This document shows, piece by piece, positions 43,868 through 58,306 of a stretch of 64,000 nucleotides of DNA. The DNA comes from Ulva prolifera (Eukaryota > Chlorophyta > Ulvophyceae > Ulvales > Ulvaceae): the NCBI GenBank assembly GCA_023078555.1, contig CM041197.1, forward strand, positions 8,526,842 through 8,590,841. The letters run 5' to 3'. The translations under genes and the position numbers were made by a program. The notes below the pieces were generated by a model. The model made no database searches. It saw only the letters and a list, made by a program, of their open reading frames with translations, and was not told where the DNA came from. Numbering within the stretch: position 1 is the first letter of the stretch; each line of letters opens with the position of its first letter.

Positions 43868-44591
43868 GTCCTCAGCGGACCGTCGATGCTGACCCATGCA
43901 GTCGGGCACTGCGTATGCGTAAGTAAACTGAATTTATGTCGCATCTGCGCGCTTCTGCGGTTCAAGGCTCGCCTTCCACATGCGTAAAATGTGGCATACA
44001 GCTCAGGTGGATGACAGAACTTGCCTGCAGACGTGTCCCCCACCGCCTCGTCATATCGATCGCTCAAGGCCTTTCGTCGCGTCAATGACCAGGCCAATCG
44101 TCTCATATCATAGAGATATTCACAAGGGTGACCATGCGAGTAAGCGCGTGCAATTGCATTGAACACCCGCCTGCAAGCCATGGCTGACAGTGCCGGTCAA
44201 GTAACAAGGAACAGTCATGTGGCGGTTTTTCAGGGCGCATATGTTCCTACAGGCACATGTGTTACACTGTCCTTGGGGGAGGGGGGGGGGAGGGGGCAGG
44301 TAGGCATGCAGGTAGCACTCAAGCTGTGGTGGCCACCCGGGTGTTTTTGGAGGTGCTGGTGTTAGTTTCAGTGCGGGCCCTCCGAGTCGGGGCTGCGTGC
44401 TTGCGCCAGTTGCTTTGTCTTCGTTTTCTTATTGCCCACCGGGCCTTACGTTTTGGGGGGGCATGCGTGCATTGGGCTTGACCTGGGCCTTGTGGCTGAG
44501 GCGGCCGTAGCGCCCAGGTGCGCCACTACCTGAGGTGCATGCGGAAACCCAGCAACGCCTTTGCGTATGCATGACCCCACGTTGCATGCAG

Positions 44592-44709
44592 GCCGGCATC
44601 ACCGTGTTTGCGTCGGCGCTGGCGGAGCTACCCCCACAGTCGCAGATGCCGATCGGCGGCCAGGACGGTTTCGTCCCCTACAAGCCCGCTGCCGACCTCA
44701 TCGCCGCAG
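44592..44709 (+). pseudogene. Exon-like segment, copy 1
   Basis: Bounded by ...GCATGCAG and GTGCCC. Encodes AGITVFASALAELPPQSQMP, then GGQDGFVPYKPAADLIAA. It looks like a real internal exon, but no neighbouring exons are found and it sits inside a repeat-rich duplicated block. It may be a captured or stranded gene fragment. Family not recognised. Confidence 0.35.
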
Positions 44710-45181
44710 GTGCCCCACTACGCTGCTCCCATCTTTAAGATCGGCCTTGTTGAAACACGACCCCCCAAACACAGGACACGTCCTATCATAGTGTCCCCTC
44801 CGAACCAACGGTGTCTCCAGAGGACCCCAGTCATTGCCATCGCCAGAATTCCCGGGCAACCCGGCCGGTGTCGGCATGCATACGTCACGGCACGTGTCCA
44901 ATTCCTGCTCACCCCTGCGCCCGTTTCCCTCGCGGACGGCGCGCTTCATGGCGCCTGCGCGGAAGCGGGTGATCATGTCGACACCCGTTGATCTGTATAC
45001 AATTGCAAGCTCAAGCTGCTCCGCCTGGAGGCGGCGGTGGAGACCCTGTGAACTTAATCGTGTATTGGATTTTCTTTGGCATGTCCTTGTCAGACCCTGG
45101 CAGTGTAGTGACTTCCGCAACAGCTCCGCCACATGCATATATGCATCATGGCCGCCAACAGCAACCAACATACGGCCGTGC

Positions 45182-45368
45182 GTGACCACCTCGATTAGCA
45201 CAGGAGGACGCCCTGTGAGTTGCGTACGGTCGTCTGAGGGGGCTTTCCAGGTGCGTCGGCATGCAGTCGACCTTCCTTCAATGCGGTGGTCCCGTACGTT
45301 AGTGTACTCGGAGTTGACGTCAACGTCCAACAGGATACGCCTCAGTGAATTCAGATTCACTTTTACAT
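45182..45368 (+). repeat. SINE-like repeat, copy 1 of tandem unit
   Basis: Starts GTGACCACCTCGATTAGCAC and ends ATTCAGATTCACTTTTACATC. It has an insertion-like difference in the middle (GTGCGTCGGCATGCAGTCGA). A perfect GGTTCGAACCC lies 50 bp downstream and a palindromic repeat follows at 45435. Confidence 0.85.
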
Positions 45369-45434
45369 CACATGGCTGCTGCCGAGGCCTCCAAGCTGTT
45401 CGCTGCCGTGGCCTCCAATTCCGGTTCGAACCCT

Positions 45435-45478
45435 GTGGCAGCCCAGTGATATGACCGCTACCCCCACTGGAATACCAC
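45435..45478. repeat. Palindromic hairpin repeat
   Basis: GTGGCAGCCCAGTGATATGA, then CCGCTACCCCCACTGGAATACCAC. Copy 2 (52606-52648) has one C fewer in the centre. Confidence 0.8.
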
Positions 45479-45595
45479 AAATCCGTGCGATCCTGGATCC
45501 GATCCTAGATCCGGAGTCATCTGGGGCTGTGAGAAACACGTCCGCACCGTAGCGGCTCATCATGATCCGAGGCATGATGCCTCTCGTGCGCTGAG

Positions 45596-45634
45596 GCGAT
45601 CCAGTGATATAGCGGCCTCATCACTGGATTGGCA
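45596..45634. repeat. Palindromic hairpin repeat
   Basis: GCGATCCAGTGATATAGCGG, then CCTCATCACTGGATTGGCAC. Confidence 0.8.
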
Positions 45635-45829
45635 CCCCTGTCGGCTTCTGATCGCTGCCACTGATGACTCCGGTGCCTGGTGAGGCCTGGGCGCTTGCCA
45701 ATATGCCCCCTTGCAAGCCCATGCCACTGCAGAACTGAGCAGCCGCCCCCCTCGCGCGGCGTCCCCCACAGCTGTGTGTGTCTCACATACATGTCAATGT
45801 CCCAATGGATAATGCTATGTCTTCATGCG

Positions 45830-45945
45830 TGGTACGTGCTCGTGCCCGGCCTAGTGCCATGACTGCGTGAGTGATTTGCGTGTGTATTCCTGGCGACGGC
45901 TCGCTGCCCGGCCTCTGTCCTTTGTAACTACATGCATACATGCTC
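45830..45945 (+). repeat. Upstream copy of the retroelement 3' end
   Basis: GGTACGTGCTCGTGCCCGGC..GTGCCATGACTGCGTGAGTG...CCCGGCCTCT..CTTTGTAACTACATGCATACATG. This matches 48046-48168 at roughly 75-80%, including the end of the reading frame and its stop. The RT fragment starts directly after it. Confidence 0.75.
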
Positions 45946-56120: not shown

Positions 56121-56296
56121 TGTAAAGTAAAGTAAAGTAAATCTGAATTTACTGAGCCGTATCCTAATGGACATTGACAACTCCGAGTTACCGGGACCAC
56201 ATGTGCCGAAGGGGTAAACCACCTGCCAGTGGAAACCCCCCTCAGACGACCGCACGCAACTCACAGGGCCTCCTCCTGTGCTAAGCGAGGTGGTCA
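56121..56296 (-). repeat. SINE-like repeat, copy 2 of 48951-49126
   Basis: No difference noticed from copy 1. Confidence 0.88.
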
Positions 56297-56326
56297 CTTA
56301 TGGCAGTTTCGATTCCCCAGAGCGCA

Positions 56327-56399
56327 CGCAGAATCGAACCCACGACCTCCTGAAACGGAGGGGGTAGCTTTTAATCCGTCCTCAACCAATGGAACCCTG
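56327..56399 (-). tRNA. Degenerate tRNA-Leu-like sequence, copy 2
   Basis: Same relic as 49157-49229. Confidence 0.4.
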
Positions 56400-57396
56400 T
56401 GTGTAGGTGTGTTGACATGGTCACCGCTGGAGAGACTGGTCGCACTGAAACCCTCACACAGGGACGCGGCGCACGCAAGCCACACATGAGTGGCAGGACA
56501 AGGCACACCGCGGGCATCACCTGGCGCAGCTGCAGGGCGACACAGGACATCTGAGGCACCACAGCCACACAATATCACTCGAGGCGCCTCCACCCCACGC
56601 CACTCATACCCCACGTTCTGTGCGGAGGTGTGGTCGGCCGTCCGTGCGTTGCGGGACTGCCTGTCGATACGCTGCGGTGGGGGCGAAGCAGGTGGGCCAT
56701 GCAGGGGCATGCGCACCCCGCCGAGGTTGCGCCCTACTAGTAGGGCCCTAGGCCTGGTGCGGGTGCCCATGCACCAACACAGCTTGCGAAGGCAGGAAGA
56801 ACAGCAGATTGCATGTCCTACTTCACCAACATGAGATTACAATATTACATTGTATACAAATTTAACCTCACACTTTTTTGCTGTCCAGATAGGCCAGATA
56901 GGCGTGCGCAGTCACAGCCAAATCTGTGTTTGTGATACCCGGAATTCACAGCCTGGCCGTGTGATCTCACTTGCTTTGAGGTACACACTGGCCCCACTGA
57001 TGCATTTGTCCTTGCGATCTGTTGATGGATCACCTGCTCGCAGCGGCATTTTGAGGGCTGCCCCGCCAGGTTTTTTATCACACCAATGGAGCTGACACTA
57101 TGACAGTGCACTGCAGCAGTTCTGTGGCACCTCCAAGCCTTCCAGCGCTAGCAATGGCTGTGAGTTTGCTCTACATGAACCATTCTCAGCATGCCAAGCT
57201 TGCTCCAGCCTACATGGCAGATCACCCCAGTCCTGTGAAGTAGTCATGGTTGCCTGGCGCAGTCACCATTTCAGAGCTATCTAAGATTGGCATGGATTGC
57301 AGGGCTGTGACTCCTGGCTCACTGCCAACAGGAGTCTTCTGCACCAAGCCTGCCCCGTACAAGCCTCCTCCCCCAGAGACCACCCTGACCATGCCA

Positions 57397-57482
57397 GTGG
57401 CAATCCAGTGATATGACTGATATGGTATAGCAGTCATATCACTGGATTGCCACATATAGCGGTGATATCACTGGATTGCCAC
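57397..57482. repeat. Compound palindromic repeat, copy 2
   Basis: Same as 50227-50312. Confidence 0.9.
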
Positions 57483-57641
57483 AATGCCCCCTGAAGACAC
57501 CCTGCTGTGCTGCACTTGTGCTCCTCATGTGCTGTACTTGACCATAGCTGGTGTGAATGCATGTCGAGGTGTGATCTGATGCTTGCCTTGGCCATGCATG
57601 TGCCATTTGCTTGTGTGTTGGAAAGGTTGAGAGCCGAGGTG

Positions 57642-57744
57642 CTCTCTCTCTCTCTCTCTCTCTCTCTCTCTCTCTCTCTCTCTCTCTCTCTCTCTCTCTC
57701 TCTCTCTCTCTCTCTCTCTCTCTCTCTCTCTCTCTCTCTCTCTC
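57642..57744. repeat. Pure CT microsatellite, copy 2
   Basis: About 103 bp of uninterrupted (CT)n, 27 bp shorter than copy 1 and without its CC interruptions. Confidence 0.97.
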
Positions 57745-57829
57745 CAGGCGAGCAGCGCAACAGGGTTGAACGCGGCTGTACATGTTGCTCATGTCCATGG
57801 GTCTGAGCACTGCAGGCTACTTGGTTCTC

Positions 57830-57994
57830 AGTAAAGTCAAGTAAACCTGGACTGGCTTATCCATGTCCATCAGAAAACATTAACAACTCCGAATAGAGGG
57901 GCCCACATGCCAAAGGTGTGAATCACCTGGATACCCCCTTGACAAAGCCGTACACCACTCACAGGGCCTCCTTCCGTGCTGAGGCAGGTGGTCC
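57830..57994 (-). repeat. SINE-like repeat, copy 2 of 50687-50851
   Basis: No difference noticed from copy 1; offset 7143. Confidence 0.8.
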
Positions 57995-58306
57995 TAGTGT
58001 GATACACAGTGTGGCAATCAGTGTGGTAGTGTTTATGTGAGCCACATCAGCTGCTACTTGACAAGCAATGGCTGGCCGCCTGATCAGTCTGCACCGTAAC
58101 ACCCGCAACTGCAGTGAATGAATAGCTCTTGTAAGCGATGGCAAGGTCTGAACCGTACACAAGAGGACCAAGCGCGATTGTTCTTCCATATGCCCAATGA
58201 TCTGAGCTGTTGCGTGTGTCAGTTGCTATGGCAAATTATTCACTGTGTAATGCCATAGGTTCGGTGTGGTGTGCAGGTCCGAAGATGTAGGTGAAACTTG
58301 GTCTGT

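Follow-up and report, generated by a model that had tools for sequence, protein, structure and literature searches.

A near-identical 7.2-kb tandem duplication in the Ulva prolifera genome assembly, with a second copy that is very probably an assembly artefact

Organization of the tandem unit

The window analysed in this study is a 64-kb stretch of the Ulva prolifera assembly (C2:8526842-8590841), and the genome searched with its sequences comprises 88.9 Mb in 44 contigs. A plastocyanin gene on C6 of this genome codes for a mature protein that agrees at 98 of 98 residues with PDB 7pcy, the plastocyanin of Enteromorpha (now Ulva) prolifera. The window carries two adjoining copies of a 7.2-kb unit, whose main features are as follows (window coordinates, all on the + strand).

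43863-51163, +, unit copy 1, whose first 583 bp (43863-44445) correspond in clean form to the noisy opening of copy 2
45948-48166, +, LINE fragment (reverse transcriptase) in copy 1
50472-50601, +, CT tract of copy 1, 130 bp, interrupted
51164-58306, +, copy 2 of the unit, which directly follows copy 1 and is most likely a spurious duplicate of it
51164-51395, +, hybrid seam, similar both to the unit start (43863-44222) and to the right flank (58307-58591)
51396-51616, +, second step of the seam, with about 14% mixed error relative to 44223-44445, resembling a single raw read
51617-58306, +, clean part of copy 2, the same as 44446-51163 save for one C and the CT tract
53118-55336, +, LINE fragment in copy 2, placed by the offset of 7170
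57642-57744, +, CT tract of copy 2, 103 bp, pure
58307-58591, +, start of the right flank and second parent of the hybrid seam

A preliminary description of this DNA reported that the two copies abut seamlessly and that about 6.7 kb of them look identical except at one C and the CT tract. Both statements are borne out. The copies have the same orientation and meet exactly at 51163/51164, and there are no N bases in the 64-kb window, so the junction between them carries no N mark. The only differences between 44446-51163 and 51617-58306 are a single C and the CT tract. When 44456-50470 is aligned with 51627-57640, there are no substitutions and one indel (the C, at window position 45461), and 50603-51163 aligns with 57746-58306 with zero differences. 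The CT tract that lies between these clean blocks measures 130 bp in copy 1 and 103 bp in copy 2.

Repeats and annotation

Among ten long ORFs of the window, one has a Pfam match (reverse transcriptase, E 1.6e-8) and the other nine have none. No tRNA gene was found in the 64-kb window, and no Rfam family reached its gathering score there. Transposon boundaries were considered as the edges of the unit and rejected, given that the LINE fragment and the dispersed repeats are internal and the edges of the unit do not coincide with the LINE fragment. The genome search located 44528-44700 at C2:3586292 as well.

Several repeats in this region are described here in their own right. Positions 45829-45947 hold a LINE 3' tail ending in ...CTTTGTAACTACATGCATACAT, and a 5'-truncated copy of that LINE follows within 6 bp. 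At C1:11175000-11199000 (L027-L029), LINE copies and their tails succeed one another directly and are joined in ACAT repeats. This arrangement suggests that the LINE tends to insert into its own tail. Short palindromic elements built around CAATCCAGTGATAT...ATATCACTGGATTG are present at several genomic places, among them 45591-45638, 48826-48871 and 50227-50283 of the window, L031:6413-6461 and L027:2360-2405. These are foldback-like or MITE-like.

A dispersed repeat occurs at 48952-49127, 1075-1212, 28271-28448 and 42110-42194, with many relatives throughout the genome (identities reach 93% across 281 bp, in L021), and it is SINE-like in size. The 189 bp of 44528-44716 are 99.5% identical to L024:6292-6480 (C2:3586292), which lies on the same contig at a distance of about 5 Mb and where the adjoining sequence is dissimilar; this fragment is perhaps a captured exon. 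Toward the start of the window, inverted repeats at 3207-3345 and 4503-4643 (128 bp at 97% identity) enclose about 1.4 kb and possibly represent a DNA transposon or a foldback element. A tandem array at 1740-2305 is formed by 9.1 copies of a 62-bp unit with 99% matches, and carries long open frames on both strands.

The start of copy 2 is degraded in two steps

The first 453 bp of copy 2 repeat the opening 583 bp of copy 1 in degraded form, in agreement with the initial characterization of this segment as deletion-rich. An alignment of 43863-44455 with 51163-51626 has 431 matches and 14 substitutions. Deletions account for 148 bases (67 events) and insertions for 19 bases (12 events). These changes are distributed over two distinct steps. 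The first step (51164-51395, 232 bp) lacks 134 of the 360 bases (37%) of its counterpart at 43863-44222, and carries 8 substitutions and 5 insertions relative to the unit start. The second step, whose counterpart is 44223-44455, has about 14% mixed error (7 substitutions, 14 deleted bases and 13 inserted bases), after which the sequence is clean. This second step (51396-51616) has the look of one raw long read.

Both steps are homologous to copy 1 far above chance, with z values of 16.5 for the first and 23.7 for the second (300 dinucleotide shuffles each). By comparison with dinucleotide shuffles, there is no match between the left flank and the tail of copy 1 (z -0.2) or between the right flank and the copy 1 start (z -0.6). 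A genuine tandem duplication is expected to show uniform similarity up to a clean junction, and the 7.2-kb unit does not have this property.

The right flank as a second parent of the seam

A comparison of the right flank with the seam was set up as a negative control. It gave a z value of 4.4 and led to our main result, which is that 51164-51395 looks like the largely shared part of two unrelated sequences, namely the unit start and the right flank.

The segment 51164-51395 scores 73.0 against the right flank. In 2000 random versions of the unit start, which carried the same deletion lengths at random placements, the corresponding scores had a mean of 40.4 (s.d. 3.8) and a maximum of 54.4. 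Because the score of the seam exceeds those of all 2000 random-deletion versions, the losses in the seam appear to depend on the flank bases at each point. Since 51164-51395 follows both the unit start and an unrelated flank, the seam has the properties of a consensus in which two different continuations were combined.

The targets of a free-end scan with 51164-51395 were 6404 overlapping segments, drawn from both strands of the window and of eight other loci. The best places outside the seam were the unit start (96.4) and the right flank (73.6), against a mean of 37.8 (s.d. 8.8), and the best 30 entries listed all fell within the seam, the start of copy 1 or the right flank. When the seam was halved, the right flank was still the top place outside the seam and copy 1, narrowly in both cases (35.0 versus 32.8 and 38.4 versus 35.8). 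The longest common subsequence of the seam and the flank comprises 186 of the 232 bases, whereas 62 other segments gave a mean of 165.8 and a maximum of 173. A cruder global score with a fixed length of 360 bp did not set the flank (34.6-38.0) apart from an unrelated place at 24036 (38.2), and a fixed-length score placed the flank just ahead of 1000 random places (34.6 versus a maximum of 33.8).

The match between seam and flank is also colinear. Four successive 58-bp pieces of the seam, each of which was free to land anywhere within 760 bp of the flank, fell in order at 58307-58378, 58381-58442, 58445-58524 and 58532-58591, with individually modest z values of 1.7, 1.0, 1.8 and 3.9. Of the next four pieces, one skipped 134 bp and was placed further along the flank (z 2.4), whereas three were placed elsewhere or at chance level. 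A genome search revealed no other occurrence of 58307-59000. The mixing is confined to the seam, and the left and right flanks themselves carry no sign of it.

Simulated consensus sequences

The formation of a consensus was simulated by a simple majority vote on a clean unit template, with 25 repeats per setting. A deletion-rich consensus with few substitutions emerged when flank reads made up at least half of the mixture, and unit reads alone did not produce it. Mixtures of 1:1 and 2:2 yielded 195 and 255 bp with a mean of at most one substitution, and a 3:7 mixture yielded 253 bp. Only 2 to 22 bases were lost from mixtures in which flank reads were the minority (8:2, 7:3 and 6:4). A single simulated unit read with 13% error had a length of 357 bp and lacked about 18 of 360 bases. 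The simulation matches the seam roughly and in a qualitative sense only, in that simulated mixtures of comparable deletion had flank scores of 93-109 versus 73 for the seam, and had fewer substitutions and insertions than the seam.

A second adjacent duplication on C6

Contig C6 carries two LINE copies that are identical, flanks included, at 4056 of 4056 bases, and extending this comparison outward revealed a larger duplication. Three places on C3 carry further LINE copies that have equal scores in the genome search. The 7.2 kb of the window unit would be a plausible length for one long read, and the C6 duplication spans 49.8 kb. Its copies occupy 317248-367035 and 367037-416873 and are separated by one N at 367036 (L037:1136; region L034-L046). 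Three aligned stretches of these copies, which leave out 99 bases of the second copy, have identities of 99.83, 99.31 and 99.92% and a total of 18 substitutions and 69 gap openings, compared with 63 substitutions and 2 gap openings in young natural repeats.

The lone N at the exact C6 junction looks like the join of two pieces. An N can also stand for withheld sequence, an improbable origin for a single base. Some scaffolders insert a single N between contigs whose overlap stays unresolved. The single N and the indel-type differences together match the expected look of overlapping ends that were left unmerged, and the C6 duplication probably represents unmerged overlapping contig ends. However, its second copy is not proven to be false, because pieces can also break at real repeats. 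The support from elsewhere in the assembly for our interpretation of the window consists of this one other large adjacent duplication.

An assembly artefact is the most probable explanation

We consider it highly probable that the second copy of the unit is an assembly artefact and that the true locus consists of the left flank, one unit and the right flank. An assembly error is most likely because the garbled seam looks averaged from two unrelated sequences. In addition, the unit copies differ by error-type changes more than by substitutions, as is expected of a false duplication. The preliminary description had proposed a false join or unpolished long-read noise. This proposal has the best support of the readings considered, with the refinements that the most deletion-rich 232 bp go beyond plain read error and that noise from a single unpolished read fits 51396-51616 only.

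The events that produced the junction might have been as follows. One assembled piece would have ended just inside the right flank (near 58591, about 285 bp in), and another would have started within the unit (near 43863). These pieces would truly overlap by about 7.5 kb. If they were put nearly end to end instead, then the unit would be written twice as a result. The first piece would end in right flank and the second begin in the unit, and a consensus built where these two ends were superimposed might have kept mainly the bases common to both, which would yield the 232-bp deletion-rich seam. The following 220 bp or so may have been supported by about one raw read and thus left raw, and the normal coverage beyond this point would have given clean sequence. 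The data show the two parents of the seam, its two steps of quality, the lack of substitutions in the remainder of the unit and the C6 duplication with its one-N join. We infer the absence of the unit-to-unit junction from any DNA molecule, as well as the software step behind it. Several points weigh against an artefact. The junction lacks an N, the fixed-length and halved-seam scores separate the flank narrowly or not at all, the simulation matches the seam roughly, and a real tandem could likewise bring together reads of the unit start and reads of the flank.

Alternative explanations

The strongest rival is a real and very recent tandem duplication, whether fixed, polymorphic between pooled thalli, or present as a circular unit, whose junction consensus was spoiled by the piling of unit-to-unit and unit-to-flank reads. 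Such an arrangement would also provide both parents of the hybrid seam, and the near-identity of the copies outside the seam and the junction without an N are features that a recent duplication would have. However, the flank that follows copy 2 should then also be mixed with the unit start, yet the two do not match (z -0.6). A normally covered junction would presumably have been polished like the neighbouring 6.7 kb, and the other adjacent duplication of this assembly, on C6, sits on a one-N join. We therefore regard a real tandem as unlikely. Our confidence is similarly low, and slightly lower, for the proposal that unit-to-unit adjacency exists in real molecules, as a polymorphic tandem or an excised 7.2-kb circle beside single-copy chromosomes, such that the assembler averaged two true exits from the unit into the seam.

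The preliminary description offered unequal exchange between old diverged repeats as its alternative, in which case the first 450 bp of copy 2 and the copy 1 start would be related through old divergence. The homology of the two starts beyond chance (z 16.5 and 23.7) is compatible with this idea. However, the types of change at the seam are the reverse of those seen among natural repeats. The seam carries 14 substitutions versus 79 gap events, which corresponds to 5.64 gap events per substitution. The same alignment settings were applied to 62 natural alignments of unit segments with their dispersed genomic relatives (at least 110 columns, CT-tract alignments excluded, some places counted twice owing to overlapping or duplicated loci), which together contain 2403 substitutions and 706 gap events, for a ratio of 0.29 and a highest single ratio of 1.0. 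Young pairs show the same tendency, as 12 BLAST alignments between LINE-bearing loci (99-100% identity, more than 800 columns) contain 63 substitutions and 2 gap openings. Old repeats would also leave unexplained why the seam resembles the right flank, and a genome search with 43500-44527 found no third relative beyond copy 1 and, in part, copy 2. Unequal exchange thus fits the data badly and is very improbable.

A reading without any second parent, in which the seam is unpolished read error from the unit start, suits 51396-51616 but is scarcely credible for the whole seam, since 51164-51395 also follows the right flank, lacks 37% of its bases versus about 18 of 360 for a simulated read with 13% error, and has deletions that spare the bases it has in common with that flank (none of 2000 random placements attains its score).

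Relationship to known kinds of false duplication

Among the errors that the Vertebrate Genomes Project describes are homotype false duplications, which arise at contig boundaries, often have roughly the length of a sequence read, and appear after scaffolding as tandem copies with a gap (PMC8081667). The window copies are likewise adjacent, in the same orientation and near-identical. In contrast to the gap between copies described there, the window has a hybrid consensus seam and no N. Kelley and Salzberg (2010) describe adjacent contigs that overlap at their ends and are both retained, so that the overlap is written twice, and the cause they give is haplotype differences between separate contigs (PMC2864568). 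Their account also indicates that duplications within contigs are rarely mis-assembled. Unlike the cases described in that account, no substitution separates the window copies in their clean part, and the join has no N. Read depth and junction-spanning reads are presented as the usual criteria for identifying false duplications (PMC9516828).

The window copies also resemble a genuine recent tandem (segmental) duplication in that they are adjacent, in the same orientation and near-identical over 6.7 kb. However, a clean tandem duplication would not have a hybrid junction, whereas the junction in the window is a hybrid of the unit start and the right flank. The window case appears to work like the known kinds of false duplication while lacking their gap. 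Because this gap is missing and a hybrid seam stands in its place, we do not file the case as a proven member of these kinds.

Implications for the reference genome

If the second copy is an artefact, then a seemingly very recent 7.2-kb duplication would be removed from the reference genome, and the 49.8-kb duplication on C6 would be put in doubt. Gene counts and copy-number claims at both duplications need to be checked. Our findings also suggest a test that can be conducted without reads, wherein a deletion-rich edge of an adjacent duplication that aligns both to the unit start and to the far flank would mark a junction as the consensus of two sequences.
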